This document shows, one piece after another, positions 592-19,521 of a stretch of 22,594 bases of DNA. The notes under the pieces are model-generated. The model was not told where the DNA came from. It was given only the letters and a program-made list of their open reading frames with translations, and ran no database searches. Source of the DNA: a virus. Position numbers and translations under genes: made by a program. The DNA lies in IMG/VR virus record IMGVR_UViG_3300010354_000726, positions 1-22,594 of that record; one strand, given 5' to 3'. The stretch's first letter is position 1. Each line of letters starts with the position of its first letter.

Positions 592-1629
592 ATGGCACTA
601 TTTAATTTTCCAACAAATCCTTCGATTGGAGATACTTACACAGTAGGTAGCAGAACTTATATATGGAACGGTTCGGCTTGGATTATTGGTCCAAGCCCAG
701 GAAGCTTTACCACCGTAACAGGTGTAACTCTAGTTCTTACTACAACTGCTAATGCTGTAAGCATTTATAACGGTGGTGCTTTAACTGTTGCTGGAGGTGC
801 TGCTGTAGCTGGAGATTTATATGTAGGTGGCAGTATTGTAGGCATAAGCACAGGAACAGGTGGCGGCATTGGAGCAATAAGCGGAGGAACTGGAACCTTT
901 GCTAGAGTTGTAGTAACAAGCGGTGTTCAATCATACAGCACAATGACAGGTGCTTTAGTTGTAAATGGAGGCATGGGTCTAAGCGGGAATTTATGGCTTG
1001 GTGGAACATTATTTTCTGGAGGTGCACCAGTATTAACTACTGCTAGTTTTAATGAAACTATTGCAGACGGGGTCGATATTGATATTACAGATATTGGCGG
1101 TGGTGTTTTAGAATTTAATAATATTTCAACCCTTCAATCTGTGTCTAGTAGAGGTAATTCTACAACATTTACTGTTAACATTCTTAATACCACTAGCTCG
1201 ACAGCCACAAATAACGGCGCACTAGTAGTAGCTGGAGGTGTAGGAGTAGGCGGACGAGTAAATTCTGAAAGTTTAAGAATAGCAGACACCATTTTTGATT
1301 CTACTGTCCAAACGGTAAATAATACACTTGCGACTGTGATTGATGAATTTTCCTTTAATGAATATAGATCAGCGAAATATCTAGTTCAGGTGAGCGAGGG
1401 AACAAGTTCAACGCATAGATGTCAGGTAACTGAATTATTAACTTTAGTATCAAATACTGGTTCTGTAATTGTTACAGAATACGGAAGTGTGGTAACTGAC
1501 ACTGACCTTGGAAATTTTGATGCTATGGTAACTAATGCCGGATACGATACTGTAGTAAGATTATATTTTTTAGCTGTTGATAGCACGCCAAAAACTGTTA
1601 AGGTAATGAGAACAGCAATGGCAAAGTAA
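592..1629 (+). CDS. Fibre-like virion protein with GALxVxGG repeats
   Basis: This 345-residue protein opens with FPTNPSIGDTYT...YIWNGSAWI (residues about 5-31), a motif common at the ends of phage fibre proteins. Three copies of the GAL[TV]V(A/N)GGxxxxGxLxxGG module follow, near residues 59, 118 and 206. Between them is a TLQSVSSRGNSTT module, also found in the gene at 4289. The last ~100 residues (YRSAKYLVQV...VTEYGSVV...LGNFDA...VKVMRT) form a domain shared with the C-terminus of the next gene; I recognise this domain from fibre proteins of marine T4-like phages. Such proteins are normally trimeric virion fibres that contact the host surface. Inferred function: receptor-binding or fibre subunit. 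The ribosome site is weak (GAGAATAACAT), suggesting translation follows that of the upstream gene. Confidence 0.8.
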   Translation: MALFNFPTNPSIGDTYTVGSRTYIWNGSAWIIGPSPGSFTTVTGVTLVLTTTANAVSIYNGGALTVAGGAAVAGDLYVGGSIVGISTGTGGGIGAISGGTGTFARVVVTSGVQSYSTMTGALVVNGGMGLSGNLWLGGTLFSGGAPVLTTASFNETIADGVDIDITDIGGGVLEFNNISTLQSVSSRGNSTTFTVNILNTTSSTATNNGALVVAGGVGVGGRVNSESLRIADTIFDSTVQTVNNTLATVIDEFSFNEYRSAKYLVQVSEGTSSTHRCQVTELLTLVSNTGSVIVTEYGSVVTDTDLGNFDAMVTNAGYDTVVRLYFLAVDSTPKTVKVMRTAMAK

Positions 1630-1641
1630 AGGAATTGGAGC

Positions 1642-4206
1642 ATGCCTATATTTTCCCAGAGTAGAGATTTTGTTGTAAAAAATGGTATTATCACCGAAGC
1701 TACTGGTGATGCTACAAGCTCAACAGGTAACACTAATGTTATTCAATCTGCTGGGGGTATAGCCGCTGCGAAAAACCTTGTAGTCGGAACTACAGCTACA
1801 ATTTACGGTGAAATTAAATCCTATTCTACAGCCAGTTTTGTAGATATCGTAACTACTAAAATTACTGCTACTAGCACATCAAATTTTGTTGATATCTATG
1901 TAAGGAATATTATTTCAAGCGGTGTAGTTAGCGGAACTATTACTGGTAATATTAATACTGCTACTAATTTAGCAGGCGGAACCACAGGACAGCTCCCATA
2001 TCAAACCAATTCCGGACTTACTGGATTTACTGGCCCTGGGACTGCTGGGGATTTATTAATTAGTAACGGAGCAGCAGCCCCTACATACAAAAATACACTT
2101 ACTCTTGCAGGCACTACAGAGGCAACTAGCACGAATACTGGTGCTTTGCAGGTAAGAGGCGGCGCTGGGATTGCCGGAAACTTATATGTAGGAGGAACGC
2201 TAAGTGCAGGTTCAGTATTAGGAACTGCAACGAAGGCAACGACTGCTACAAATTTAGAAAATGGAACAGCGGGTCAGGTTCCTTATCAAACAGCAGCTGG
2301 TTTAACATCATTTTATGGACCTGGAACAGCAGGTAATGTTCTCGTAAGCGGTGGAACAGGTGCTCCTGTTTATCAAAATACCCTTACATTAACTGGAACC
2401 GCACAAGCATCTACTACAAATAGTGGTGCTTTACAAGTTGCAGGCGGAGCAGGAATAGGCGGAAATCTTGTAGTAGGCGGAACAGTCTTTGGTTCACTAA
2501 CAGGAACAGCTTCTACATCTACAAACTTAGCAGGCGGAGCTACAGGATCTATCCCTTATCAATCAGCAGCAGGGCTAACAGCATTCATCCCTATCGGAGC
2601 GAACGGGTTCGTTCTTACTTCTAACGGGACTACTGCAACATTCCAAAGTTTAAGCAGCCTTAGTGCAGGAAATGCCCTAACAGCTACAAATATAGCTAAC
2701 GGTCTAGCTGGTCAGCTTCTTTATCAACAAAGCCCAGGACAAACAACATTTGTTAATACCGGAACAGTAGGTAATGTTCTTGTAAGCGGAGGAACAGGCT
2801 CACCTGTCTACCAAAATACTCTTACGTTAACAGGAACGACCGCGGCTTCTTCGACACAAACAGGAGCCTTAATAGTCGGTGGTGGTATTGGTATTGGTGG
2901 TAATGCTTATATAGGTGGCAATGAAGATATTGCTGGTTCGTTAACTATTAACAGTCTTAACGCTAGCACAGGCACAGCAGCAAGTAACGCTTTGTATGTC
3001 AAAGGCGGTGCTTATATTGATAAAACCCTTGTTGTAAAACAGAAAGCATTATTTGAAGGTGATGTTGTATTTGCCGGAACTGCAACCTACGCATATTCAA
3101 CTAATACAGTTATTACAGATAACTTAATGAGTTTACATGCTCCACCTGGTAGTGTTCCTGGAAATCACACTTGGACATTAGATGATGGCAAAGACATTGG
3201 TTTCATGTTCCATTATTATAAAGGCACAGACAAAGACGCCTTCCTAGGAATAGCCAATGATACAAGCTATTTAGAATGGTATGATAACGGTGTAGAATCA
3301 GGCGGGGTTTTCTCTGGAACAAGTTACGGTATATTTAAATTAGGTGGTATTAAACTAGTTGGAGGAAGTCAGAATACTGGAAATACATCGACTGGTGATC
3401 TAACAGTTTTAGGTGGTGTTGGTATCGGCGGAAGTCTATATGTAAGTTCTACTGTAACCTTTAATACAACTATATTACCAACAGCAACATCGGTTAATAT
3501 AGGTAGTCCTACACAAAGGTTTGGCACACTATATGTTACAAGCTCATCATTAGATGTTGGTGGTTTAGTAATCGGTGCAGAAGCCGGAGCTATTACATTA
3601 CCTAATGTAAAGGTTACAGCTACAACTGTAGCGAGTTCTACATCAACAGGTGCTATCGTTATTCAAGGTGGCGCAGGATTAGCTGGTAACTTATATGTAG
3701 GTGGCCTAGTAAGTGTAGCTGGACTAACAACTGTTACAAATACTACAAACGCAACATCTACAGTAACAGGCGCTTTACAGGTTGCAGGTGGTGTTGGTAT
3801 AGGTAGAGATATAGTCGTTGGTGGAACAAGTATTTTAGGAACTACTGCAACTAGCGGAACTGTAGTTGGTTTTGTAAGTAATAATAGTCAATATGCAACT
3901 TATACAAGCCCTGCCATTACAAATACCATTCAACAAATTCTTGATGTGTTTAATACATCAACTTATAGAACTGCCAAATATATCATTCAAATTGTAGACG
4001 GTGCTAATATTCATTCTCAGGAATTAATGTTATTCCATGCAGCGGGTCAAGTCTATAAAACAGAATATGGTATAGTGTATAACAGCACCGAGCTAGGATC
4101 ATTTGATGCAGATATTTCTGGCGGAAATTGTAGGTTACTTTTCACTGCAAGTCCTTCCCCTAGTTCATTAGTAGTTAAAATGGTAAGAACTACTATCACA
4201 AGTTAA
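1642..4206 (+). CDS. Large fibre-like virion protein with two families of internal repeats
   Basis: The protein has 854 residues, starting at an ATG with AAGGAATTGGAG just upstream. The N-terminus reads SRDFVVKNGI, a probable attachment segment also seen at the start of the 4289 gene. There are about eight copies of the TGALQVxGGAGIGGNLYVGG unit (residues near 30, 163, 258, 403, 447, 579, 665, 704). There are four copies of a ~45-residue ATNLAGGxxGQxPYQ...APVYQNTLTL unit (near 107, 202, 293, 348). A unique ~100-residue insert (about 475-575: DNLMSLHAPPG, DDGKDIGFMFHYYKG, YLEWYDNGVE) is of a kind known from T4-like cyanophage fibres. The C-terminal ~105 residues (YRTAKYIIQI, TEYGIVYNS, LGSFDADI, VKMVRT) match the end of the preceding protein. 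It is likely a trimeric fibre subunit; which fibre is not known. Confidence 0.82.
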   Translation: MPIFSQSRDFVVKNGIITEATGDATSSTGNTNVIQSAGGIAAAKNLVVGTTATIYGEIKSYSTASFVDIVTTKITATSTSNFVDIYVRNIISSGVVSGTITGNINTATNLAGGTTGQLPYQTNSGLTGFTGPGTAGDLLISNGAAAPTYKNTLTLAGTTEATSTNTGALQVRGGAGIAGNLYVGGTLSAGSVLGTATKATTATNLENGTAGQVPYQTAAGLTSFYGPGTAGNVLVSGGTGAPVYQNTLTLTGTAQASTTNSGALQVAGGAGIGGNLVVGGTVFGSLTGTASTSTNLAGGATGSIPYQSAAGLTAFIPIGANGFVLTSNGTTATFQSLSSLSAGNALTATNIANGLAGQLLYQQSPGQTTFVNTGTVGNVLVSGGTGSPVYQNTLTLTGTTAASSTQTGALIVGGGIGIGGNAYIGGNEDIAGSLTINSLNASTGTAASNALYVKGGAYIDKTLVVKQKALFEGDVVFAGTATYAYSTNTVITDNLMSLHAPPGSVPGNHTWTLDDGKDIGFMFHYYKGTDKDAFLGIANDTSYLEWYDNGVESGGVFSGTSYGIFKLGGIKLVGGSQNTGNTSTGDLTVLGGVGIGGSLYVSSTVTFNTTILPTATSVNIGSPTQRFGTLYVTSSSLDVGGLVIGAEAGAITLPNVKVTATTVASSTSTGAIVIQGGAGLAGNLYVGGLVSVAGLTTVTNTTNATSTVTGALQVAGGVGIGRDIVVGGTSILGTTATSGTVVGFVSNNSQYATYTSPAITNTIQQILDVFNTSTYRTAKYIIQIVDGANIHSQELMLFHAAGQVYKTEYGIVYNSTELGSFDADISGGNCRLLFTASPSPSSLVVKMVRTTITS

Positions 4207-4245
4207 TAGGAGATGCCAAACTATCAAAAGTTGATATAGAGCATC

Positions 4246-4253
4246 AATAAATA
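4246..4253 (+). promoter_or_regulatory. T4-type late promoter box (AATAAATA)
   Basis: AATAAATATC lies 35 bases before the ATG at 4289, in the only sizeable gap (4207-4288) within the left fibre cluster. It fits the NATAAATA form of the T4-like late promoter and would give a leader of about 30 bases with the AAAGGGA ribosome site. The same gap has a weak hairpin, TATCAA-AAG-TTGATA, at 4222-4236. The assignment rests on motif and position only. Confidence 0.5.
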
Positions 4254-4288
4254 TCAGTTTTTAAGCCGGTTGGTGGAAAGGGAAACTA

Positions 4289-6679
4289 ATGGCGTTGGAT
4301 AAAGATTTTCGTGTTAAAAATGGCCTTACGGTTAATTCAACTCTAACGGTTTCGTCCAATGTCAACAGTATTTCAACTACAAGCGGTGCAGCAATAATCA
4401 CGGGCGGTTTGGGTGTAGGTCGCAATTTATATGTCGGTGGAAACATCAATGTAGCCGGAACTATAAATGCTAGTGTAAGCGGAATAGCAACAACTGCCAC
4501 TAATATTGCAGGTGGATCGCAAGGACAAATACACTATCAGTCAGCCCCTGGGGTAACTGCTTTTGTAAATTCAGGAACTACAGGTCAATTCCTTCAAGCA
4601 ACTACTAACGGCGCTCCTGTTTTTACTAATACTGGCAGCATGTATGTAGGATCAGCTGCGAATTCAGAAAAATTAATAACAGCAAGAACAATTACCCTTG
4701 CTGGCGACCTATCAGGAAATGTTAGTTTCGATGGCAGCACTAATGTTACTTTAACTGCAACTGTGACCACTGATGCTGTGGCATTGGGCACAGATACAAC
4801 TGGTTTATATGTAGCTCAGGGAGCAACCAGCGGTTTTGGAATTAGCGGAACTGCAAACACAGAAGGTTCAACATTTACTGTTACTTCAAATGCTACTAGT
4901 AGTAATACTGTTAATACCATTGTGTATAGAGATGCTAGTGGTAATTTTTCAGCAAATACTATTTCTGCAATTCTGTTTAGCGGAACATTCACAGGGGCAG
5001 TATCGGGGACTGCCACTACGGCAATTAATATTGCAGGCGGGTCACAGGGACAACTTCATTATCAGTCAGCTCCTGGTGTAACCGCTTTTGTCAACTCAGG
5101 AACAACAGGTCAATTCCTTCAAGCTCAGACTAATGGAGCTCCTGTATTCACTAATACAGGCAGTATGTATGTTAATGCCGCAGTAACATCTGAAAAATTA
5201 TTAACAGCCAGAACAATCAGTCTAGCTGGAGATCTAAGTGGCAATGTTATCTTTGACGGTAGCACCAATGTTACTTTAACTGCAACTGTGGTCACCGATT
5301 CTGTAGCATTAGGAACAGATACCACAGGAATATATGTAGCCCAGGGAGCAACAAGCGGTTTTGGTATTAGCGGAACTGCTAATACTGAAGGTTCAACTTT
5401 TACTGTTACTTCAAATGCTACTAGTAGTAATACAATTAACACTTTAGTTTATAGAGATGCTAGTGGTAATTTCTCAGCGGCTAATGTTACTCTAGCTGGA
5501 ACAACAGCAGCAAGCTCTACAAATTCAGGAGCTCTGCAGGTTGCCGGCGGTGTAGGCATAGGCGGTGCCTTATACATAGGAACTAGTAGTTATATTTTCG
5601 GAGCTCAAATCTTAACCAGCGCTACAGTTAATCAATTTGTAACAGCTGGGGTAAGTTCTATTTCTGCAGGAACTGATACTGCTGTAAGTCAGACTACTGG
5701 CGCTGTGGTTGTATGGAATACCGCCACACTTCGAAGCGTTACAACTAGAGGTGCTACAACCACTAATATTATAAGCATAACCAACACTACAAGTTCAACT
5801 TCAACAACAACTGGTGCAATGATTATCGCGGGTGGTCTCGGTGTTGGCAGAAAAATATTTGTAGGTGGACTGACAAATTCTACCAGCACTAGTGTTTTAT
5901 ACTATAACACATCAACTGGGGAATTTACTTACGGTGCAAGCTTTGCTTCTGGGGGTGGCGGAACTACTAGTCCATTTAGCGGTATCTTTACTATAACAAA
6001 TACCACAGCAGCTACATCAACGTCATCTGGCGCTTTACAGGTATCAGGGGGAGTAGGAGTTGGGGGAAGTCTTTATGCTACTAATGTATTTGCCGGTGGA
6101 GCACAGATAACAGGATTTAACAGTCAAGAATTTACTGCTTTAGCAGGTCAAACTGTCTTTACAGTAACAAACGGATATATTGTAGGTCAAGTTGAAGTAT
6201 TTGCTAACGGTATCTCTTTAAATGCTAGCGATTACACAGCATCAAATGGATCTAGTATAACATTAATTGAATCTAGACGATTAAATGATGTTATTAAAAT
6301 CATTTCAGGTAAAAATATAAGTGTCAGCTCTCAACAGGCATATATATTTACAGAAGTAGTAGCAACTACAGCAGGGCAGACGACATTTACAGCAAATTAT
6401 AATTCTGCAACTGTTCAAGTTTTTGTAGACGGTGTATTAAGAAGCCCATCTGCTTATACAGCATCGAATGGAACATCAATAGTTTTGAGCAGCGGAAGTG
6501 GAATAGTCAACGGAACTCGAATCGGTGTCTTATCTTTCAATAGTATTAGTATTGCTGGTGCAGTAAGTTTAAGTGGCGGAACAGTTAACGGGACATTAAA
6601 TGTAAATGGAAGTCTGCAACAAAACGGAACAGACCTTAAGGCCTATACGCTAGCAATGTCAGTGGCTATGGGAATTTAA
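4289..6679 (+). CDS. Large fibre-like virion protein with a 175-residue tandem duplication
   Basis: The protein has 796 residues, and its ATG is preceded by AAAGGGAAACTA. The N-terminus, LDKDFRVKNGLTVNS, resembles that of the previous gene (SRDFVVKNGI), suggesting the same attachment point. A GAAIITGGLGVGRNLYVGG module (near 32) leads into two almost identical 175-residue blocks (starting about residues 72 and 247). Each block contains IAGGSQGQ, AGDLSGNV.FDGSTNVTL and VAQGATSGFGISG. More TGALQVAGG modules lie near residues 411, 508 and 580. Two copies of an AGQTxFT...VFxxGxxLxxxxYTASNG beta domain lie at about 614-673 and 689-750. The tail is a short STLNVNGSLQQNG-like segment. All parts are familiar from phage fibres, supporting a virion adsorption role. 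The partner proteins are not known. Confidence 0.82.
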   Translation: MALDKDFRVKNGLTVNSTLTVSSNVNSISTTSGAAIITGGLGVGRNLYVGGNINVAGTINASVSGIATTATNIAGGSQGQIHYQSAPGVTAFVNSGTTGQFLQATTNGAPVFTNTGSMYVGSAANSEKLITARTITLAGDLSGNVSFDGSTNVTLTATVTTDAVALGTDTTGLYVAQGATSGFGISGTANTEGSTFTVTSNATSSNTVNTIVYRDASGNFSANTISAILFSGTFTGAVSGTATTAINIAGGSQGQLHYQSAPGVTAFVNSGTTGQFLQAQTNGAPVFTNTGSMYVNAAVTSEKLLTARTISLAGDLSGNVIFDGSTNVTLTATVVTDSVALGTDTTGIYVAQGATSGFGISGTANTEGSTFTVTSNATSSNTINTLVYRDASGNFSAANVTLAGTTAASSTNSGALQVAGGVGIGGALYIGTSSYIFGAQILTSATVNQFVTAGVSSISAGTDTAVSQTTGAVVVWNTATLRSVTTRGATTTNIISITNTTSSTSTTTGAMIIAGGLGVGRKIFVGGLTNSTSTSVLYYNTSTGEFTYGASFASGGGGTTSPFSGIFTITNTTAATSTSSGALQVSGGVGVGGSLYATNVFAGGAQITGFNSQEFTALAGQTVFTVTNGYIVGQVEVFANGISLNASDYTASNGSSITLIESRRLNDVIKIISGKNISVSSQQAYIFTEVVATTAGQTTFTANYNSATVQVFVDGVLRSPSAYTASNGTSIVLSSGSGIVNGTRIGVLSFNSISIAGAVSLSGGTVNGTLNVNGSLQQNGTDLKAYTLAMSVAMGI
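4502..5478 (+). repeat. 525-bp in-frame tandem repeat inside the fibre gene
   Basis: The block starting at 4502 (AATATTGCAGG) recurs at 5027, and the matching ends (GCTAGTGGTAATTT..TCAGC) fall at 4953 and 5478. The offset is exactly 525 bases at both ends, that is 175 codons with no net indel. The proteins are nearly identical over about 150 residues, while the DNA differs at many third codon positions. The intervening linkers (about 4954-5026) are less alike. Confidence 0.9.
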
Positions 6680-6682
6680 CCC

Positions 6683-6690
6683 GATAAATA
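6683..6690 (+). promoter_or_regulatory. T4-type late promoter box (GATAAATA)
   Basis: GATAAATATC lies in the 26-base gap before the gene at 6706, with AAAAAGGTAAATT following as ribosome site. It shares the nine bases ATAAATATC with the boxes at 4246 and 16325. The box ends only 15 bases before the ATG, so the leader would be very short (about 9 bases). Confidence 0.5.
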
Positions 6691-6705
6691 TCAAAAAGGT
6701 AAATT

Positions 6706-9582
6706 ATGGCAAAGCAACAATTAAGAGATTATGTTTTTACTCCAGGAGCCGCAGGTATTGGCAATATCAAAGTTCCGGGGAAATATACTCTTGATCAGAT
6801 TATTCTAATTACTAATGTTACTAGAAACACAATTCTTTACAATTTTGCCGATACTTTGTTTAACGGAACAACAGTAACATTTACCGAAGGTAACGATGCT
6901 ACTAACTTTCCTAAAATTCTTCAAAGAGAAGCCGGTTTCACAACCATTACCTTAACTGCTAGCACTGTCGGCCAAAGCTCATCAGATCGTCTAAGTGTCT
7001 TAATGGAAGAGCGAGAAATATTCTTCAGACCTTATAGATTTGGAACAGATGCAATAGAAAGAATGAGGATTAGCCAAGGTCAGTCAATGATCGATGCTGA
7101 CTTTGAGTATGGTCTACAACCTACAAAATGGGCAGGATATGGGGTAGTAAGAGGTTATCCTAGTGTTTATGAAATTCCAGGGGTTGACTTAATAGTTAAC
7201 ACTATTACAACAGATGGTGGTAGTCCAAATAGCCTAATTACTATTACAACTACAGGTGCTCACGGAATAAGCGACGGGCAGGCTATTAGCATAACTGGAT
7301 TGAACGACGGAATTAGCGGTTTCAGTCAGGCTGACGGACTTTTTATTGTTACTATTCCAAATAGCACAAGTATACAATACTATGCCTGGGGAGTTGTGGG
7401 GGTCAATAATGATGATCTTAAATCAGATGCTATTCAGCTTAAAAGAGGAGGTATCTATACTGGGGCAGGATTAAGTGTTGCAAGTGGGTCAAGCTCTGGA
7501 GGTAATCCGTCAGTTATTACTATAAATTTTAACAGTAATCATGGATTAGTCCCCGGATCACCTTTATATGTTTTATCTAATAGAGCTAATGCAACTGGTC
7601 CGTTTTATGTTGAAACGGTGCCGAGTCTAACATCAGTAACATTTACTGCTAGAACTGGCTCTATTGCTAGTATAACATTTACCGCAGTATATTGTATAGC
7701 CGGATCTCAAATTATACATAGACCATTTGATGGCGGAGTTTATATCAGCGTAGGTATACCTTCTCATGGTGCTAGTGTAATTAGAGTCAGTAAAAAATAT
7801 TTTAGATATCAGTCAGGTAAAGGTTTATTATGGTCAACAGGAACTCTTTTCAAACCTAACTATGATATAAGAAGCATATCGTCTTCTGGAACTGCTGCCG
7901 GTAGCACAATTACTGTAACACTAGATGGTGTTGCTCATGGATGTCAAATAGGCGCAACTATTGCTATAGAAGGCGTAAACAGCAGCGGTTACAATGGAAA
8001 CTATCAAGTAGTCAGTATTGTTAGTGATATCTCATTTACAATTACAGCAAATACTGCACTAGGGTCGGCTGCTCCTGTATTGGGTATGGGAGCAAAGGTC
8101 GTTTTAGAAGGATGGCACGGTGCAGTAGTAAGAGCAGGATGCTTCGATGACCAAAATGGAATGTTTTGGGAATATGATGGAATGAATCTTTGTGTGGTTA
8201 GAAGAAATTCTACACAACAGCTTACTGGAGTTGTAACTATAAGCAATGGTAGTAATCAGGTCACAGGAACTAATACAAGATTTTTAACCCAGGTTAGAGC
8301 CGGCGATAAAATTGTAATACGAGGAATGACTCACTATGTTACAACGGTGGCATCTAATACCAGTATGTTTGTGAACCCAGATTTTAGAGGAGTGTCTGCG
8401 GCTATACAGGTTAAGGCAAGTTTAATAGTAGAGACTAGGGTAAAGCAGTCTGAATTTAATATAGACAGACTTGACGGAACCGGACCTACTGGATTTAGAA
8501 TAACTATGGCTAGAATGCACATGCTAGGAATTCAGTATACATGGTATGGAGCAGGATTTATTGATTTTATGGTGAGAGGAGCCGACGGCAATTGGGTTTA
8601 CGCTCATAGGTTAAAAAATAATAATGTAAACTATGAAGCACATATGAGAACAGGAAATCTTCCTGTAAGATATAGTATCGAAAACGAGGGAGGAATCTCG
8701 TATCTCACTAGTTCTACTAATTCTTCACAAACATCAATTTATATAAATGATACTACCTATTTTGCTACAACAGGAACAGTATATATTGATAATGAAATTA
8801 TAAACTATACTGGAAAAACCAGCACAGGTATATTAACAGGATGCACTAGAGCAGCCACATTAACTCAATTTATAAATGGTGCAAATAGAAATTTCACCGC
8901 AGGCACCGCAGCAGCTCATACTGTTGATACTGGTGTTATACAGATTTCTAGTTATGGAACACCAACATTAAGTCATTGGGGTAGTGCGTTATTATGTGAT
9001 GGCATGTTTGATGAAGACCGAGGGTATTTGTTTAACTATCAAAGAACTGATTTTACTATCACTAGATCAACACAAACATCTTTTTTAATTAGATTGGCCC
9101 CTAGTATCTCAAATAGCACTATTGGTGATTTAGGTGTAAGGGATTTGCTCAATAGAAGCCAATTGTTGTTAAATGCCTGTACAGTGAGTTTAGCTAACGG
9201 TGCCGGAAATCCGACTAGTGTTGTTGTCGAAGGCATTTTAAATCCTAAAAATTTTAGTAATGCTACATGGACTGCATTAAATTTAGAAAGTGCAGGAGGC
9301 CAACCGAGCTTTGCTCAAGTGGCAACTAGTGTGACATATAGCTCAGGAAGCTATGCTCTCCCAGGTGAACAGGTATTTGCTTTTGCTGCGCAACCATCAG
9401 GTGATGCAACATTAGATCTTAATCAACTAAAAGAATTAACTAACAGTCCACTAGGTGGCAGTGGAGCATTTCCTAACGGGCCGGATATTTTAGCAGTTAA
9501 TGTTCGTGTGTCGGGTGGGCAAGTTAGCACCGCTACAGTTATCGGAGCAGTTTTAATAAGATGGAGTGAAGCTCAGGCTTAA
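6706..9582 (+). CDS. Large multidomain virion structural protein (T4-like marine phage type)
   Basis: The protein has 958 residues and starts after AAGGTAAATT. Its core resembles a large structural protein widespread in aquatic T4-like phages. Recognisable core parts are the N-terminal QLRDYVFTPG, RPYRFGTDAIERMRISQGQ (about 112-130), QSEFNIDRLDGTGPTGF...YTWYGAGFIDF (about 584-625) and LSHWGSALLCDGMFDEDR (about 753-770). Several beta modules are threaded into this core. Three are AHGxxxG...VxxxxSxxFT units (about 183, 280, 409). One is a VTGTNTRFLTQVRAGDKIVI unit (about 505-560). One is a YIDNEIINYTGKTST...CTRAA unit (about 663-742). Its exact place in the particle is not known; adsorption apparatus or baseplate periphery is likely from its fibre neighbours. 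Confidence 0.75.
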   Translation: MAKQQLRDYVFTPGAAGIGNIKVPGKYTLDQIILITNVTRNTILYNFADTLFNGTTVTFTEGNDATNFPKILQREAGFTTITLTASTVGQSSSDRLSVLMEEREIFFRPYRFGTDAIERMRISQGQSMIDADFEYGLQPTKWAGYGVVRGYPSVYEIPGVDLIVNTITTDGGSPNSLITITTTGAHGISDGQAISITGLNDGISGFSQADGLFIVTIPNSTSIQYYAWGVVGVNNDDLKSDAIQLKRGGIYTGAGLSVASGSSSGGNPSVITINFNSNHGLVPGSPLYVLSNRANATGPFYVETVPSLTSVTFTARTGSIASITFTAVYCIAGSQIIHRPFDGGVYISVGIPSHGASVIRVSKKYFRYQSGKGLLWSTGTLFKPNYDIRSISSSGTAAGSTITVTLDGVAHGCQIGATIAIEGVNSSGYNGNYQVVSIVSDISFTITANTALGSAAPVLGMGAKVVLEGWHGAVVRAGCFDDQNGMFWEYDGMNLCVVRRNSTQQLTGVVTISNGSNQVTGTNTRFLTQVRAGDKIVIRGMTHYVTTVASNTSMFVNPDFRGVSAAIQVKASLIVETRVKQSEFNIDRLDGTGPTGFRITMARMHMLGIQYTWYGAGFIDFMVRGADGNWVYAHRLKNNNVNYEAHMRTGNLPVRYSIENEGGISYLTSSTNSSQTSIYINDTTYFATTGTVYIDNEIINYTGKTSTGILTGCTRAATLTQFINGANRNFTAGTAAAHTVDTGVIQISSYGTPTLSHWGSALLCDGMFDEDRGYLFNYQRTDFTITRSTQTSFLIRLAPSISNSTIGDLGVRDLLNRSQLLLNACTVSLANGAGNPTSVVVEGILNPKNFSNATWTALNLESAGGQPSFAQVATSVTYSSGSYALPGEQVFAFAAQPSGDATLDLNQLKELTNSPLGGSGAFPNGPDILAVNVRVSGGQVSTATVIGAVLIRWSEAQA

Positions 9583-9587
9583 TCATT

Positions 9588-10985
9588 ATGACAATCGCTG
9601 CTAACCTTTCCTATCTTCAAGACAATCAAGGTAATATAACGTCAGGAACATTTAATGTTGCTGCGGCTCCTTTTACGATTGCTATTGCTAGTAGCGAAAA
9701 AGTTAGGATTGATAATAATGGTTACCTTTTAGTTAATCGAACTACAAGTCAAGGGAATTATCATCTACAGGTTCAGGGTAACACTTATATTAGCGGAACT
9801 ATGGAGGCTGGAACGATTATTGCCAGCAACTTTGCAGGAGTTAGTAATACCTCTACAAATTTATCAGGCGGAGATGCTAACCAAATAGTGTATCAAACAG
9901 CACCCGGGCAAACCGGATTCTTGCCTGTTGGACCAATCAATACCGTATTAGTAGGCACAGGAAATGCTCCCAATTTTCAAAACTTCTTTACACTAGGTTC
10001 TACCACTGACTCTACTAACACACAAACCGGGGCTTTGATTGTCAGAGGTGGAGCGGCCATCCAAAAAAATCTATATGTTTTTGGAAATGTAGTCAGCTCG
10101 GGAACAATTGTAGGTAGTGTAGCACAAGCCTCAACAGCTACATTTGCTATATCAGCCGGATCTGCAACAACAGCTACTAACGCCTTGTTTGCCAATACTG
10201 CAACCTTTGCCTATACTGCAACTACTGCTACACATCTGCTAGGGGGTGCAGGTGGGAGTATTCCATATCAAACTGCCGCAGGTCAGACAGCATTCTTGGC
10301 TATAGGTGCTAACCAATATGTGTTAACAGTCAGCGGAACAACACCTGCTTGGTCACCATTAAGTGGTGTTAGTGCGGGAAGTGCATTGACAGCAACTAAT
10401 GTAGCATTTGGAACTGCTGGCCAGATCCCATATCAATCATCACCGGGAGTGACTGTATTTGTTGGACCAGGAAATACTGGTGAAATACTAGTAAGTAGAT
10501 CAACATCGGGACCTATATTTCAAAATACTCTAACACTAGCAGGAACTACCGCTGCTTCGAGCACAATGACTGGCGCTTTTCAAGTAAGAGGTGGTGCTGG
10601 CATCGGCGGTGATCTGTATGTAGGCGGCACAATATATGGATTAAATGGTCAGGGTATTAGACCTAGAGTGGTAGCATATGCTAACGCTACCAGCATAACG
10701 CTCAATGCTGATACAACAGATATTGCCACACAGACAAATACACAAGCAGCAGGCACGCTGACCTTTGCTGCGCCCACAGGAACCCCATATGATGGTCAGA
10801 AAATTTTAGTTAGATTAGTATGCACTAATGCCCAAAGTTTCAGCTTTAATGCGGTATTTCAAGGGTCGTCTGAAATGGCATTGCCTACTAGTAGTAGTAG
10901 CGGCGGAAAATATGACTATATGGGATTTATATATAATTCGGCTGCCGTCAAGTGGCAACTTATAGCAAAAATGTTCGGTTTTTAA
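9588..10985 (+). CDS. Tail-fibre-like protein with conserved C-terminal domain
   Basis: The protein has 465 residues, starting 5 bases after the previous stop with no good Shine-Dalgarno; coupling to the upstream gene is likely. The N-terminus has an EKVRIDNNGYLLVNRTTSQG segment, the xRIxxxGxxxVxxT motif that begins many trimeric fibre regions. Three GGxxxQIPYQxAPGxTxF units (near 87, 215, 268) and two TGALIVRGG-type units (near 145, 328) follow. The last ~110 residues (RPRVVAYANATSITLNAD, TDIATQTNTQAAGTLTF, YDYMGFIYNS, KWQLIAKMFGF) form a compact domain that I recognise as a common C-terminus of phage fibres. It is probably the distal or receptor-proximal tip. Inferred role: fibre subunit in host recognition. 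Confidence 0.8.
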   Translation: MTIAANLSYLQDNQGNITSGTFNVAAAPFTIAIASSEKVRIDNNGYLLVNRTTSQGNYHLQVQGNTYISGTMEAGTIIASNFAGVSNTSTNLSGGDANQIVYQTAPGQTGFLPVGPINTVLVGTGNAPNFQNFFTLGSTTDSTNTQTGALIVRGGAAIQKNLYVFGNVVSSGTIVGSVAQASTATFAISAGSATTATNALFANTATFAYTATTATHLLGGAGGSIPYQTAAGQTAFLAIGANQYVLTVSGTTPAWSPLSGVSAGSALTATNVAFGTAGQIPYQSSPGVTVFVGPGNTGEILVSRSTSGPIFQNTLTLAGTTAASSTMTGAFQVRGGAGIGGDLYVGGTIYGLNGQGIRPRVVAYANATSITLNADTTDIATQTNTQAAGTLTFAAPTGTPYDGQKILVRLVCTNAQSFSFNAVFQGSSEMALPTSSSSGGKYDYMGFIYNSAAVKWQLIAKMFGF

Positions 10986-10994
10986 TTTAGTGAT

Positions 10995-13900
10995 ATGGCA
11001 AATAAGTATTGGCGAAGCACTATAGCATCAGGAAGTTGGAACTCATCGGCAAATTGGAGTCTTAATAGCTCTACCCCTCCCTATACAAATACCAGTGCTC
11101 CTACCAGCTTAGATGATGTATTCTTTGAAAGTAATGCTACTGTGTCTTTTACCACTTCAGCTAACTGTAGGCTGCTGAGAATAAGGGCCAATGTGACATT
11201 CAATGCAGGCAGTATAGGAACAATAAGTGTAAATGGCGACCTTGAGTGTGATTATTTTACCACGGTAAGATATAATGGAACTACTGCTATTACCATGGTA
11301 GGTAGTGCCGCACAAAATATCTATCCTAGTAGCGATATGAATGTTCAGAATTTTAGAATTAACAAAGCTACTGGGGCAACGGCTACTCTCCACGGTCAAC
11401 TGAATATTACCATAAACACAACCAATGCTTCTAGGTTTTTTCACACCACAGGAAATTTCAATCTAAATGGTAATACTTTGGTATGCAGATATTACGATCA
11501 AAGCGCAACTGGTAATAGAGCATTTAATCTCAATGGCACAGTTAGAGTTATCGGGCAAAGCGGTAATATAGTTATAGGAATCGCAAGTCCCAACCTAACC
11601 TATACAGACAAGTCAGGTTGGATAGAAGTAGCACCAGACGGCGGCACAGGCACAATAGGATGTGTATTTCACACACAGAATAGAAATGCTGCACCTAAAG
11701 TAAGATTCACTAATAATAGAAACTACTCAGTATCTGGTAATTGTGAAGAGGTTGAATTAAACGGTGCTTTTGTCTCTACGACTAATATTGGAATTTTCGG
11801 ACCACTTACTGGTACTCCCACTGTGACATCTATGATTACCGGCGTAACTGTTACAATACTGGGCGTAGCAGGGCAAACTGTAGAATACCCGGGATATAAT
11901 GCTATTTTTGGCACATTGGCATTTAGTGGTTTTGCCGGTGCCTCTGGTATTACATTCAACATAAGTGGTGTTCGAGCTAACACAATAAACTGCACAACTT
12001 CATTTTGTACCTATAATATTTCCATAACCGCAAATGTATCTGGTTTTACATCAACTACTCTCAATGCCACAGGCATAGGATCGACTTATAATTATGATAA
12101 TTTTTATGATCAAGCAGCCTCTACTATCAATATGGGGGGCAGTGCGGCTACAGTTCATTTTGTTAAATACTATGCTACATTTGATACCATAGGCTCAATT
12201 AATTTTACTATAGGAAATTTGACATTAGAAACTACAATTTATTGTAGATTTTTTAATTCAAATACTGCCAATACTAGAGTCTTTCTTTTTCAAAACAATT
12301 GGATCAGGGTTGGTCATTCTAGGTCCAGCACAGGATCGGGGGCAGAAGCTAATGGAACTGGCGCAATTGCTATCACCGGAACATCGGCTCAAATAACCTC
12401 TGATGCGGAAACAACATATGATGGCGGATTTTGGCTATCAGGTAGCGGGACCTGCACACTGGGCACTTGGGGTATTATTCATGCTCCTAGGTTTGTTATA
12501 GAGGCTATCAATAATGTTGGACTAACTGCCAACATTACCAGCGGTAATGTTCGTCGTTGTGAAATACAAAACAGTGTTACATTTGGATCAAGCACAATAG
12601 CGATTACCAAAGAAGATTTTGTTTGGAATGGTGGAGGAACACCTAATTTAACTAATTTAACCTTGGATCATATACATACTTCCAATATAAATGTGGATTT
12701 TAGACCCAGTGAAGCACTCGGCAGTAATCCTAATCTTAGAATAGGCACATTTAGAATTCCTGGTACGGCAGGAGCAAATGTTACCTGGAACCTAAATGTC
12801 TATTGTAGGTTTATGAGCCTGCTAGTTTCTACAGGAAATTTTTATTTAGATGATGTTAATTTTGTAAATCAAATAACTGCCAGTGGTATAAATGCTATCT
12901 ACAGATACAACACAGTTATTAATAATACCGGAGTTACAACCAGCGAACAAATTACTATGGGTGGTAGTGCTAGCACTCAACATAGAGTAGAATGGTATGA
13001 TGTTAATGTAAATGGTATTATAAATCATTCGATAGGGTTATTACACCTAGACTGGGATTTAAATTGTCGCACATTTAGAAGTAATGTCACTGCTAATACT
13101 AGAGTATGGGAATTTAACGGTAATTGGATTAATACTACTGGTTCTGGTATATTCGACATTGTAGGATCAACCGCTATTACTTCAGATGCAGAAACAAGTC
13201 CTTGGGGTGGAGGTTTTAGGGTAAGAGGTTCTGGGAGTTATCATACTTTTGGAACCGTTCCTGGAATACATGCGCCTAGGGTAATTTTTGATCCTCAAGG
13301 CAGCACCGTTACCGTGGGAGTAACCAGCGGAAATGTTCGAGAAGTATATTTAGAGGCGGGAACTCTTACCTTTCTTACCAGTAGCGTAATAACCTTTGTG
13401 AGATCTGGAATGAGTCATGCCGGCGGCACATATAATACAGTAAATTTAACATGTATTATAAATTTTGTTGCTAACGAAACTTTTGATTATACATATACTA
13501 GAATAGGAACACTACAAGTTTCTGGAGCACCTACGGGATTAACTTATAATCTTAGTGCTGATTGTAACACTCTAACGATTTCTTCGGGCAGTAACACATA
13601 TAACCTCGATAATATCACACACGGTATTGTTACATTAAGTGGTGGGTCTGCTACTTATAATTGTAACTATCTACGACAAAATACAGGAGCAGGCGCTAGA
13701 ACATTATCAGGCACAGGTTCTACTTATAATTTGACTAATTGGCAGGCACTGGGAACTATAACTCATAGTGCTGGCACCGTAAATCTTACCTCTAATAATA
13801 ATCTTTTCGACCAATGGCAATCAACATCTGGACTTACTAGACGACTACAAGCCAATGGCTATTTTATATATTGTGCAACCTCAGTGAATTTTCAATCAGG

Positions 13901-16235
13901 CATTACTGGATTTACTTCAGATAGTAATGGTGGCTTCGAAATGGATAATGGCAATGCTAACTTAACTGCTATTCTATCAACAGATACCAATGCTTTTGAT
14001 TTTAGAATATATGGTAATATGTCCTGGAGTTTTGGCGGAACAGTGAATACCTTGATCCTAGGAGGTGGTGCCGGTATAACAGGGTTAACTCAGATGTATG
14101 TAAGAAAAAATGTCATACAAGGGTATCCTTGGACCACGGTTAACTCACTTTCCAATCTTCGAATATACATGGTTAGCAACGGAACTTATGACGCAGATAC
14201 ACCCAGTCCAGTGGGTTTAGTTGTCGCCCAAAATAATGGGCAAAGCATCACGGTTAACAATATGTATGCTTCTCAAGTTGATTTTACAGGGGCTACTTCA
14301 AATTATACAATTAATAATGCCACAGCTATAACTATCTTAAACTGTAGTGGTAGCGGTTCTACTTATAACTTGTTATCATTTAGCGGAACAACAGTAAACC
14401 TTACCGCACTTTTTGCCAGCGGAACTCCTGTTTACAACATAGGATCTATTGTGATTACAGGATCTGCTGTAGGACAAGGACTACAATTTCAGGGGGGTGG
14501 TAATTTAAACCTAGTAGGAAATCCTTCTTTCTATCGTATCAATTCAAATGTTGGCAATACAAGAAGTTTTAATTTCGGCAGTTATTTTATTATTATGGAA
14601 GCAGGCGGTAATGTTAACATTGCCAATTCGGCACAATTCAGCTCTACTGAGACAGGGGGTGGATGGAGGCTGAGAAATAATAATACCATGGATATAGGTA
14701 TATTGGCATCTGGTGCTTCTATGAATATCCAATTTCAAGGTGTTTTAACTCTGTCTACACCTGGAAATACATTTATTAAAACACTTCAAAATTATTGGGA
14801 TGGTGATGCAGGAACACCTGGATACATAAATACAGCCAATTTTACCCTAACTGTCTACGGTGGAGTAAAATTAGCTGGTGACGGTAATCTAAACTATGGT
14901 AATTGGTCTACTACAAATATAACTGTTATAAATAATGACACTGCTGCAAATCCTTCCTTTACTTCATATCCTTCCGGCGCATCAGGTTCTGTAACTATCC
15001 CTAATCTTGATGTATCCGGTGCAGGGGTGACAAGAAATCTAGTAGGAAACTTATATGTAGGAACATTTACTTTTAATTCAGGTAGTTTTAATTTAAATAA
15101 CAATACAATTTTTGCTACCACATGTACATTAAATTCAACTACAAAGTCCATAGCTTCAGGAACATCAGGAAAAATACAAACTATAAATTGGAGCCATGCA
15201 GACATAAGCGCAATGACATGGACAGGCACAGGTTACATCGAAGTTTATAACGGAACACTAAACAATGGAGGCACTACAGGCGCTACTACTAATATTGCTA
15301 ACTTTAGGATAGCAGGAAATCCCACAGTCAACAATAATTTTTATGCAAACAACCTAATACTTGTCGGATGGACTCCTAATTCTAGTCTTTATAGAACATA
15401 TATTGCAGGTAATCTAACCTATTCTGGTGGAATGGATTCAACAGCATACCTACATACCTTTGAATTTATCGGGACAAATGCAGCTTCAGTATCTACTACA
15501 GCAGCAATGACTAATTCTTTTCCAAGGTTTATTATCTCTGGAGGTAAAACACTTACAATTCAGAATTCTATACTTGCTAGTATTATCCAAATAAATGCTT
15601 CAAACACCTTAAACACAAATGATCAAGCAATAACCATTGATAATAGTGTAATAAACAATGGGACAGTCACATTAGGGTCTAGTATAATAACTATGTCTTC
15701 TAACAGTGGTAGTATTTGGAGTGGCAGTGCTAGTCAAATTGTTAACGGAGGAACCTCAGAGATTAAGTTTACAGGCACAGGATCGTTTGATAAAACTGTT
15801 TATTTTGGAACTGGTAATACGCTCAACAAGTTAACAAATGGAACAACATTTTCACATAGTGGAAGCGGGGACGGCACAGGGTGGTTAATAATTCAATCTG
15901 ATAACCTTTCTATAGCTCTTGTGGCCAAAAATCCTGGTGCCTATTCTGCAGGTTTCAAATTTACTAACCAAGGAGCTGGTATAGCCAAAGTTACAGCGTT
16001 CTCTATAGATGGTATTTCTGGATTTCCTACCTATGTTCAAGGTCCTATAACTAAACCAGGAAGTGTAGGAACTATGACATTTAATTGGTTGGGAGTAAAA
16101 AATTCAGTGGTATCAGGAGGTGCTCCTCCTGGTTGGTATGCTAATAGCAGTATAGACTATGGAGGCAACACAGGATGGATATTTGCCGCTCCAGTTAATA
16201 CAAATAACGGTAACGGATTTTTTGTATTTTTCTAG
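10995..16235 (+). CDS. Giant beta-rich adhesin-like virion protein (1746 residues)
   Basis: This is the longest gene here. It begins YWRSTIASGSWNSSANWSLN...PTSLDDVFF (residues 5-44), the opening of a family of secreted or phage-borne beta-strand-repeat proteins (YWxxGTGNW...NWS...PTSxDxVxFD). The rest is Asn/Thr/Ser/Gly-rich with short alternating strands and no predicted catalytic motif, suggesting a long beta-solenoid. A large unit is repeated clearly twice (about 378-520 and 653-782). Weaker relatives lie near residues 173-255, 945-1010 and 1185-1262. The C-terminus DYGGNTGWIF is also typical of this adhesin family. There is no signal peptide, as expected for a virion protein. It is probably a host-contacting spike or fibre, last gene of the fibre run. 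Enzymatic activity against polysaccharide cannot be excluded. Confidence 0.72.
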   Translation: MANKYWRSTIASGSWNSSANWSLNSSTPPYTNTSAPTSLDDVFFESNATVSFTTSANCRLLRIRANVTFNAGSIGTISVNGDLECDYFTTVRYNGTTAITMVGSAAQNIYPSSDMNVQNFRINKATGATATLHGQLNITINTTNASRFFHTTGNFNLNGNTLVCRYYDQSATGNRAFNLNGTVRVIGQSGNIVIGIASPNLTYTDKSGWIEVAPDGGTGTIGCVFHTQNRNAAPKVRFTNNRNYSVSGNCEEVELNGAFVSTTNIGIFGPLTGTPTVTSMITGVTVTILGVAGQTVEYPGYNAIFGTLAFSGFAGASGITFNISGVRANTINCTTSFCTYNISITANVSGFTSTTLNATGIGSTYNYDNFYDQAASTINMGGSAATVHFVKYYATFDTIGSINFTIGNLTLETTIYCRFFNSNTANTRVFLFQNNWIRVGHSRSSTGSGAEANGTGAIAITGTSAQITSDAETTYDGGFWLSGSGTCTLGTWGIIHAPRFVIEAINNVGLTANITSGNVRRCEIQNSVTFGSSTIAITKEDFVWNGGGTPNLTNLTLDHIHTSNINVDFRPSEALGSNPNLRIGTFRIPGTAGANVTWNLNVYCRFMSLLVSTGNFYLDDVNFVNQITASGINAIYRYNTVINNTGVTTSEQITMGGSASTQHRVEWYDVNVNGIINHSIGLLHLDWDLNCRTFRSNVTANTRVWEFNGNWINTTGSGIFDIVGSTAITSDAETSPWGGGFRVRGSGSYHTFGTVPGIHAPRVIFDPQGSTVTVGVTSGNVREVYLEAGTLTFLTSSVITFVRSGMSHAGGTYNTVNLTCIINFVANETFDYTYTRIGTLQVSGAPTGLTYNLSADCNTLTISSGSNTYNLDNITHGIVTLSGGSATYNCNYLRQNTGAGARTLSGTGSTYNLTNWQALGTITHSAGTVNLTSNNNLFDQWQSTSGLTRRLQANGYFIYCATSVNFQSGITGFTSDSNGGFEMDNGNANLTAILSTDTNAFDFRIYGNMSWSFGGTVNTLILGGGAGITGLTQMYVRKNVIQGYPWTTVNSLSNLRIYMVSNGTYDADTPSPVGLVVAQNNGQSITVNNMYASQVDFTGATSNYTINNATAITILNCSGSGSTYNLLSFSGTTVNLTALFASGTPVYNIGSIVITGSAVGQGLQFQGGGNLNLVGNPSFYRINSNVGNTRSFNFGSYFIIMEAGGNVNIANSAQFSSTETGGGWRLRNNNTMDIGILASGASMNIQFQGVLTLSTPGNTFIKTLQNYWDGDAGTPGYINTANFTLTVYGGVKLAGDGNLNYGNWSTTNITVINNDTAANPSFTSYPSGASGSVTIPNLDVSGAGVTRNLVGNLYVGTFTFNSGSFNLNNNTIFATTCTLNSTTKSIASGTSGKIQTINWSHADISAMTWTGTGYIEVYNGTLNNGGTTGATTNIANFRIAGNPTVNNNFYANNLILVGWTPNSSLYRTYIAGNLTYSGGMDSTAYLHTFEFIGTNAASVSTTAAMTNSFPRFIISGGKTLTIQNSILASIIQINASNTLNTNDQAITIDNSVINNGTVTLGSSIITMSSNSGSIWSGSASQIVNGGTSEIKFTGTGSFDKTVYFGTGNTLNKLTNGTTFSHSGSGDGTGWLIIQSDNLSIALVAKNPGAYSAGFKFTNQGAGIAKVTAFSIDGISGFPTYVQGPITKPGSVGTMTFNWLGVKNSVVSGGAPPGWYANSSIDYGGNTGWIFAAPVNTNNGNGFFVFF
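12126..13340 (+). repeat. Long degenerate repeat within the adhesin-like gene
   Basis: Protein residues 378-520 (DNA 12126-12554) and 653-782 (DNA 12951-13340) share the same order of motifs: I[NT]MGGSA.T, CR.F.SN.TANTRV, ITSDAET...GGF, GIIHAPR/PGIHAPR and TSGNVR. The period is 275 residues at the start of the unit and about 262 at its end. The first copy carries roughly 14 extra residues (Ser/Gly-rich, near 440-455). Confidence 0.8.
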
Positions 16236-17718: not shown

Positions 17719-18124
17719 ATAATTCTAATTTAGCCCTAGTTATCTTATTTGTTAAACTATTTTTTACGCCTTGATGTAGGGGTTTAGGCCATTTACCGTA
17801 TTCACACCAAGAATAACCACTATGCTCAGAATTTAATACAGGCATAAATTCTTTTTCAATTAATAGCACATAGGTATTATATTGAAAACGTTGATCATTA
17901 CTTACAAAAAGCTCTAAAGGTATAGCTTTTCTAATTTTAGTATTTCCTACTTCTTCTTCTATTTCACGTGACAGTGTGTCATATGGTGTAAAATCTTTAG
18001 GATCTTTTTTACCTCCAACAAATCCCCAAGACCCGGCAGTTTTACCGTTGTTCCTGAGTAAAAATAAAAACCTTTTAGTATCAGCAGCCAAAACAAATCC
18101 ACCACTACAAATTATTTCATTCAC
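17702..18124 (-). CDS. Nudix hydrolase
   Basis: Nudix enzymes hydrolyse nucleoside diphosphates linked to another group (for example oxidised nucleotides, NAD-type dinucleotides or capped RNA ends). The substrate is not shown here. The first strand, CSGGFVLA, is followed by SWGFVGGKKDPKD and then REIEEEVG, the catalytic helix with its metal-binding glutamates. The Nudix box is slightly unusual: it has one extra residue between GG and RE, and Asp-Phe where the usual conserved Glu lies. No ATG exists. I chose GTG at 18124 because it overlaps the gp15 stop as GTGA; a TTG at 18139 would add five residues. It is the last gene of the gp14-gp15-Nudix set and so may be expressed late. Confidence 0.8.
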   Translation of the reverse strand: MNEIICSGGFVLAADTKRFLFLLRNNGKTAGSWGFVGGKKDPKDFTPYDTLSREIEEEVGNTKIRKAIPLELFVSNDQRFQYNTYVLLIEKEFMPVLNSEHSGYSWCEYGKWPKPLHQGVKNSLTNKITRAKLELLLELI

Positions 18125-19521
18125 AAAATCAATCGCCAAAGTTTATTTTGATATACACCTTCATAACTCTTTACCCAATCACCGTTTTCAAATTGATACT
18201 GAGTTCCGGTATAAGAGTTAGTGACATAAATTACACCGGTCGCTGTTGTAGAATCAAATACAATACCCCAACTTGTTCCATTCCATGAGATTATATCATT
18301 GGCATGTGCCCTGAAATCGCTTCCGTCGGAGTTTTTCCATGCTACAGGACCGTCGTATCCGGGCTGACCAAAATCTGGAGAAAGATTTAATCCTTCTAAA
18401 ATTAAAAATCTTGTTCCTGCTGTTACCCCCGATGGTTTATATGTAATAGGATTAACTATAGCATCAATAGTGCCTCTTCCTGATAAAATAGTATTAGAGG
18501 GTATTGTATCTTGATCTACAGATAAAATCATTGATTTATCATCTGATGGATCTAAAGAAATTGTAGCAACTACTTCATTCTCACCAGCTTTAGCAAATCT
18601 TAATTGAGTTAAACTAGCTCTAAATTTTCCAGGATACATATTTAAAATTGTATGCCACGAAGTAGAATTCCTAGGATCAGTTATATCAATTCCTGAGTTT
18701 GAAATTGCTTGACTAATAAGACGTGCTGTTCCGTTTAACACTAATAATTCATAGTTGCCCGGTGTCACTGTAACTTCTTCGTCTGGGCTAAAATCATTAA
18801 AAATAGCAGATTCACCTGTTCTATCATAGGCAGTCTTAATCGGTCCTTCTATATTTTCAGCAAAAAGATTACTGATAATTTTAGTTACTATACCTAATTT
18901 TCTTACCTTTGCAGGTGGAGTAATCCATACAGGTGCTGAGAATGTTAAACTTAAAATATCAATATCCTCGTTAACACCTTGCGGAACAGCTCTTGTCGTC
19001 CATACCTGACTTTCTAAGTGTAGCACACTAAGGCTAGTCCAATCAACATAATTATCAGTAGTTTGAATTTCTAAACTAGGATTAAAAAATACAACTATTT
19101 GCTCCCAAAGTTGCAACTTTTGTTCTGCACTTGTAGTCCATATATCTGCATTTAAAGAAAGCAGATAAGGGCTAGGCATAATACGTTCTACAGTATAATT
19201 ACTACCTTGAGTGTTAATATAGGTATTAGTAGCGGTGTTTATATCACGTTCTCTAATATGTATTTTGCTGACAAAGGTAGGGTCTTGTAGTCTAGGGCGG
19301 TCAAATTGAATGTCTTTTATATAGCAAGCAATAAATGGTGCTGATGGAATAGCATTCTCACTGTTCTTTCTTAGCAACTGTGCCACCTGTCTAGTCATAT
19401 CTCCATATCTAACAGGCACACGAGTAAGATTACCCTTAGCATCTCTATAGGCAAAATTACTCATCACGTTAATAAATTGAGACAAATATCTTCTTATTTG
19501 CCCGTCATAAAAATAATCCAT
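18121..19521 (-). CDS. gp15: Tail sheath stabiliser/completion protein gp15 (T4-like)
   Basis: In T4, gp15 caps the finished tail, holds the last sheath ring and joins tail to head neck. The N-terminus MDYFYDGQIRRYLSQ corresponds to the YFY...RRY opening of T4 gp15. LTRVPVRYGDM (32-42), NYTVERIMPSPYLLSLNADI and EQIVVFFNPSLEI follow in the same order as gp15 (RVPITYAS, YNPSPIKMIYELSI, EQILPYFQPH). LTFSAPVWITPPAKVRKLG matches the end of the conserved region. At 466 residues it is much longer than T4 gp15 (about 270). The C-terminal extension ends in a WNGTSWGIVF...GTQYQFENGDWV module of fibre-like type, as in cyanophage versions. Its ATG overlaps the gp14 stop by one base (TAATG). Confidence 0.85.
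   Translation of the reverse strand: MDYFYDGQIRRYLSQFINVMSNFAYRDAKGNLTRVPVRYGDMTRQVAQLLRKNSENAIPSAPFIACYIKDIQFDRPRLQDPTFVSKIHIRERDINTATNTYINTQGSNYTVERIMPSPYLLSLNADIWTTSAEQKLQLWEQIVVFFNPSLEIQTTDNYVDWTSLSVLHLESQVWTTRAVPQGVNEDIDILSLTFSAPVWITPPAKVRKLGIVTKIISNLFAENIEGPIKTAYDRTGESAIFNDFSPDEEVTVTPGNYELLVLNGTARLISQAISNSGIDITDPRNSTSWHTILNMYPGKFRASLTQLRFAKAGENEVVATISLDPSDDKSMILSVDQDTIPSNTILSGRGTIDAIVNPITYKPSGVTAGTRFLILEGLNLSPDFGQPGYDGPVAWKNSDGSDFRAHANDIISWNGTSWGIVFDSTTATGVIYVTNSYTGTQYQFENGDWVKSYEGVYQNKLWRLIL

Follow-up and report, generated by a model that had tools for sequence, protein, structure and literature searches.

Why would a phage gene carry two copies of one stretch of protein that have stayed nearly the same while their codons have drifted apart? 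The question is raised by an ORF at 4289–6679 (plus strand) that encodes a modular, phage fiber-like structural protein of 796 residues, and that lies in a virus record of 22594 bases from an uncultured phage, analyzed here over its whole length and called the window. The original prediction described a duplication of 175 residues; the exact offset of 525 bases holds, but 175 residues is the period, consisting of a block of 151 residues and a linker of 24. Copy 1 of the block occupies 4502–4954 and copy 2 occupies 5027–5479 (151 codons each), separated by the 24-codon linker at 4955–5026, all on the plus strand. At the ungapped offset of 525, the two copies are 82.6% identical over 453 nt from 4501, against 40.0% over 453 nt at the next best offset inside the ORF and a maximum of 41.5% when 20 codon shuffles are run through the identical set of offsets. 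In steps of 30 bases at offset 525, identity is 0.27–0.47 in the linker stretch and 0.37–0.50 just upstream of copy 1. The duplication inside this ORF is thus confirmed. Profile searches resolve the block into a module A of about 44 residues and a module B of about 97 residues, with the boundary between them a split point of our own choosing. Module A lies at 4502–4645 in copy 1 (profile match of 44 residues) and at 5027–5170 in copy 2, and module B at 4646–4954 (profile match of 97 residues) and at 5171–5479, again on the plus strand, with profile matches in the second copy as well.

Of the 151 aligned positions, 137 carry the same residue in both copies but only 85 the same codon, and codon positions 1, 2, and 3 account for 11, 8, and 61 differences, which bears out the expectation of a nearly unchanged protein with differing third positions. 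The strong purifying selection that had been proposed is also seen when rates are computed between the copies: NG86 gives a dN of 0.067, a dS of 0.85, and a dN/dS of 0.08 (range 0.035–0.136 in 300 bootstraps), YN00 a dN of 0.062 and a dS of 1.00 (ratio about 0.06), and maximum likelihood a dN of 0.057 and a dS of 1.57 (ratio about 0.04), where a dS near 1 is to be read as partly saturated. Throughout the block, dN is below dS (9 of 9 sliding windows of 30 codons). Fourfold sites common to the copies differ in 37 of 83 cases (45%); at saturation, local codon usage would predict 65%. Taken together, the dN/dS of 0.08 and this fourfold comparison show constraint on the protein together with silent drift that stops short of full saturation. 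A different account, in which codon divergence was itself selected to keep the tandem repeat from recombinational collapse, would also yield the same protein in different codons, and we regard it as highly improbable, given that the fourfold divergence stays short of the saturation expectation and resembles ordinary divergence between congeners, and that identical runs of 35, 24, 23, and 20 nt persist between the copies. We rejected such recoding, since there is no excess over drift and the present numbers fit plain drift.

Constraint is not uniform along the block. By NG86, module A shows a dN of 0.033 and a dS of 0.99 between the copies, and the part of module B outside a core described below shows a dN of 0.027 and a dS of 0.66, so that dN/dS is 0.03–0.04 in both. 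The core itself has a dN of 0.173 and a dS of 0.95 (ratio about 0.18) and is the least conserved part, which argues that core packing is not the most conserved property of the module. Seven other B pairs, each within a single gene, gave NG86 dN/dS values of about 0.04–0.26, several of them with saturated dS.

What kind of protein carries these modules? The ORF matches PHROG families of minor tail, head decoration, and long tail fiber proteins (phrog_356, E 1.5e-39, the best match; phrog_11011, E 4.8e-14), and its similarity extends to cyanophage tail fiber genes, with matches in eight Synechococcus phage records, five of which are annotated as tail fiber protein. No Pfam domain is found in the protein at E 0.01, and hence neither Mtd_N nor Peptidase_S74. 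Many fiber proteins lack these end domains, and their absence is therefore not taken as excluding a fiber. In five proteins from relatives scanned with Pfam, Peptidase_S74 was found in L120 and L003, and Mtd_N in L120 and L125; these modular fibers have A and/or B modules in common with the window protein, but the end domains are theirs and are not detected by Pfam in the window protein. The surroundings are those of virion structural genes. The ORF belongs to a plus-strand run from 592 to 16235, several ORFs of which resemble virion structural families in PHROG, and tail sheath and head–tail adaptor families are present in the window. The next gene (6706–9582, plus strand) encodes a conserved virion structural protein (phrog_5838, E 1.2e-254), with matches in 165 phage records, of which 125 go by the name Synechococcus phage, the cultured S-CAM1 being an example, and a best identity of 50% among the matches listed. 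We infer that the product of 4289–6679 is placed in a tail fiber or another fiber of the virion.

A link to a known structure comes from module B. A profile was built from A+B or B rows, using 50 of the 54 that had been prepared and setting aside three from L023 and one from L015. It matched residues 98–134 of Dec, the decoration protein of phage L (6e3c), with E 1e-12 over 37 positions, and the same rows gave no second match up to E 1 in the PDB profile search; the whole ORF alone matches Dec with E 1.5e-6. The corresponding cores, at 4652–4762 in copy 1 (placed from the alignment to 6e3c_C) and at 5177–5287 in copy 2 (the first core shifted by 525), both on the plus strand, thus share the C-terminal spike motif of Dec. 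The two proteins differ in other respects. Dec is a capsid decoration protein with a chain of 137 residues, whereas the window protein, of 796 residues, contains the motif as part of a module, and Dec has an N-terminal OB-fold for which the window protein has no significant match, none being found to any Dec residues before 73 (the capsid-binding OB-fold part). Filing the window protein as Dec was rejected because neither sequence comparison nor Pfam finds the OB-fold in it. In the part of the Dec paper drawn on here (PMC6449081), the C-terminal part forms the spike of the trimer, modeled on T4 gp34, and the trimeric beta-helix is the authors' own model, which they term speculative. By analogy with Dec, module B may adopt a trimeric beta-helix fold. 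A model of one A+B unit, predicted as a monomer, has beta strands and no helix of four or more residues (mean pLDDT 77, pTM 0.41), and a model of the two-unit segment, also as a monomer, is poor (pLDDT 47). Foldseek with the one-unit model returned a single match in the PDB, at E 8.9, and nothing usable. In BFVD it returned seven matches at E ≤0.001, three of them Mtd_N or Peptidase_S74 proteins and four uninformatively named, with TM-scores of at most 0.41 among the best 50 matches listed.

Whether the pair of copies serves a fixed fiber length or two separate binding surfaces, as the original prediction had suggested, was examined through module order and number in relatives. We used the 6706–9582 gene as a synteny anchor: its protein has relatives on 165 viral contig stretches, of which 80 were kept. 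Just upstream, 66 of the 80 loci have an ORF of 150 aa or more, complete in 55 (43 distinct proteins); the gene at this position means here such an ORF whose end lies no more than 400 nt from the anchor gene. These 55 genes encode 184–2531 aa with 0–5 A modules and 0–2 B modules, any A or B module at all is present in 5 of the 55, and none of the 55 has the order A-B-A-B. Some of these loci also went into the profiles behind the counts, and E-value limits change with the set under search, so that L088 scores two B modules in one survey and one in another; the open-ended L106 gene, with seven A modules, falls outside the 55. The closest positional relative with modules, L042, reads A-B-B followed by four A; its likeness to the window gene was judged by eye from a similar N-terminus, and the other position-matched genes are defined by position.

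The wider survey covered 140 distinct records, including the window, with loci of one contig merged by hand, L170–L175 left out, and near-identical viruses such as L120 and L121 counted apart. Strong B modules (at least 75 bits) occur in 20 genes on 18 of these records, one to eight per gene, and A stands directly before B zero to three times per gene. A-B-A-B is found inside a longer array of the fiber gene of the near-identical L120 and L121, and A modules without B occur too (e.g. L148 and L150). The nearest full A+B units are 68–71% identical to those of the window, and cellular genomes gave only five weak matches (two Paenibacillus, one Chryseobacterium, and two Bacteroidota MAG records). 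Variation in copy number, which the original prediction had named as counting against it together with decay of copies, is therefore what the relatives show, while as to decay, all that was seen is that some other arrays include B copies with low scores. The idea that shaft length or both surfaces matter is not supported: both copies are constrained, and A-B-A-B recurs in L120 and L121, but encoded length and module count differ greatly among genes at the position, L042 has A-B-B, and the window duplication is not common to L042. We consider selection for a fixed length or for two surfaces improbable, and note that it is compatible with the account of how the pair arose that we prefer.

That account depends on when the copies split relative to L042. 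From 14 chosen sources, 39 B modules (at least 75 bits and length at least 79) were taken for a larger tree, leaving 37 after removal of two duplicates, and 19 of these 37 rows were chosen by locus for a smaller one. In the 19-row tree, the two B modules of the window are sisters (95/89); its two A modules, placed separately, are sisters as well (support 0.77). AU tests reject a grouping of the first window B with the first B of L042 (p 0.0003) and of the second with the second (p 0.003), with these groups chosen once the tree was known, a practice that the tool warns about. The same test leads us to reject a tandem B that is ancestral and shared with L042. The B copies of L042 itself form no clade in the 19-row tree, and their sister grouping is not rejected by the AU test (p 0.42). 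As the window copies are sisters and the L042 groupings are rejected, the duplication is either specific to this lineage or has been homogenized. Under homogenization, an older duplication common to the relatives would have been kept alike by gene conversion, which would account for each window B copy having the other as its closest relative and for the 81% likeness of the L042 B copies. The high dS between the window copies speaks against this, since values of 0.85–1.57 are too high for ongoing conversion. Nor do identical codons cluster significantly between the copies (permutation p 0.46, 0.07, and 0.43 in windows of 20, 30, and 40 codons; p 0.09 for the longest run of identical codons), and on that result gene conversion was rejected. 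Such concerted evolution appears very unlikely to us.

More weight must be given to a history in which the copies diverged before they came together. Comparison with the congener L040 shows that DNA in this region has moved. For the whole 6706–9582 gene, the window and L040 differ with a dS of 0.88 and a dN/dS of 0.036, but dS is 0.08 at 6706–7004 and 1.07 from 7005 on. Identity in steps of 150 bases is 95–98% at 6255–7004, 88% in the next step, and then mostly 77–92%, counting L040 gaps as differences and ignoring L040 insertions. Over its final 140 residues, the repeat gene encodes the same protein in L040 (dS 0.14). A recombination junction with L040 is likely near 7000–7150, inside the 6706–9582 gene. 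Since the shared tract reaches into the fiber gene, fiber DNA has been exchanged between congeners, and the dS of the copies alone cannot date their joining. The common ancestor of the copies is not recent, given that their silent distance is close to that between the window and L040 in the next gene. The claim that the duplication is not recent thus stands for the divergence of the copies and not for their joining, because the 3′ end of the gene lies in a tract recently shared with L040.

These observations allow for a recent tandem, in which unequal or ectopic recombination between congeneric phages joined two diverged alleles of one A+B block, and silent drift would then have taken place in separate genomes. 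The fourfold divergence of the copies (45%) resembles that of the window from L040 in the 6706–9582 gene once the shared tract is excluded (46%; 170 of 367 sites from 7005 on), and the exchange with L040 reaches into the repeat gene itself. However, this equality may be a coincidence, no phage was found with just one of the alleles, the nearest A+B units being those of 68–71% identity, and both L040 and L041 are recorded only from a point downstream of the repeats, with their matches to the window starting at 6255 and 6934. We hold a recent joining to be possible but on the unlikely side. A slightly more tentative version would have a single unequal recombination of two congeners make the pair, with a longer shaft as its result and diverged copies that recombine less. 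If that were true, the dS of the repeat pair would date the split of the donor phages and not the duplication.

The reading that we find probable is a lineage-specific duplication of an A+B module of a fiber, with both copies held by the constraint of their fold. The product of 4289–6679 would be a virion fiber subunit, most likely homotrimeric, assembled from small beta-rich modules that belong to a common stock. In this lineage, after the split from the L042 lineage, an A+B block would have been tandemly duplicated together with its linker, and both copies would be under purifying selection since each must keep the module fold, while synonymous sites drift. Maintenance of the fold as the source of the constraint is our inference. 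Against this reading stand the low conservation of the Dec-like core relative to the rest of the block, the lack of any Pfam domain, and the weak fold matches and structure models.

Lineage-specific tandem duplication of a fiber module, our best reading, is a known mode of phage fiber evolution (PMC10684548, PMC6949934), on the parts of those papers drawn on here, and a conserved protein with drifted silent sites is an ordinary outcome of the known shuffling of fiber modules. The account of phage protein mosaicism in PMC10684548, whose main text as used here does not contain the word duplication, concerns mosaicism between proteins, whereas the present case is a duplication within one gene. 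The BACON tandem repeats of crAss-like phages, as described in the portion of PMC6949934 consulted, are also lineage-specific duplications in tail-associated proteins, but involve another domain and several single-domain duplications, compared with a two-module block here. According to the sections of Persi et al. (PMC5120217) used here, paralogous repeats are under purifying selection that is weaker than between orthologues; our 0.08 between copies against 0.036 for the neighboring gene is similar, with different genes being compared, and the present case differs in having no window of 30 codons with dN above dS. Among the best matches in the fiber-repeat literature, judged by title or the start of the abstract, we found no description of the A+B module pair. 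The locus thus offers a clean measured case of a duplicated fiber module kept at a dN/dS of about 0.08, in a setting where relatives reshuffle those modules, and its fiber module is now linked to the spike motif of Dec. It also indicates that silent divergence between repeats need not date a duplication in recombining phages.

A few further features of the surroundings deserve mention. ORFs 1642–4206 and 9588–10985 also match the A+B profile, mainly in its A part, and repeats of the GALxVxGGxGxGG type occur in ORFs 592–1629, 1642–4206, and 9588–10985, which points to a stock of repeats shared along the gene cluster. ORF 10995–16235, with 1746 residues, has no PHROG match at E 0.001. At 18121–20708 on the minus strand, running opposite to the fiber genes, two genes resemble families of tail sheath proteins and one family of virion structural proteins. 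In L042, the repeat gene (L042:3808–8976) has a seven-bladed beta-propeller match near its C-terminal end (Lactonase, PF10282, E 4.7e-39).
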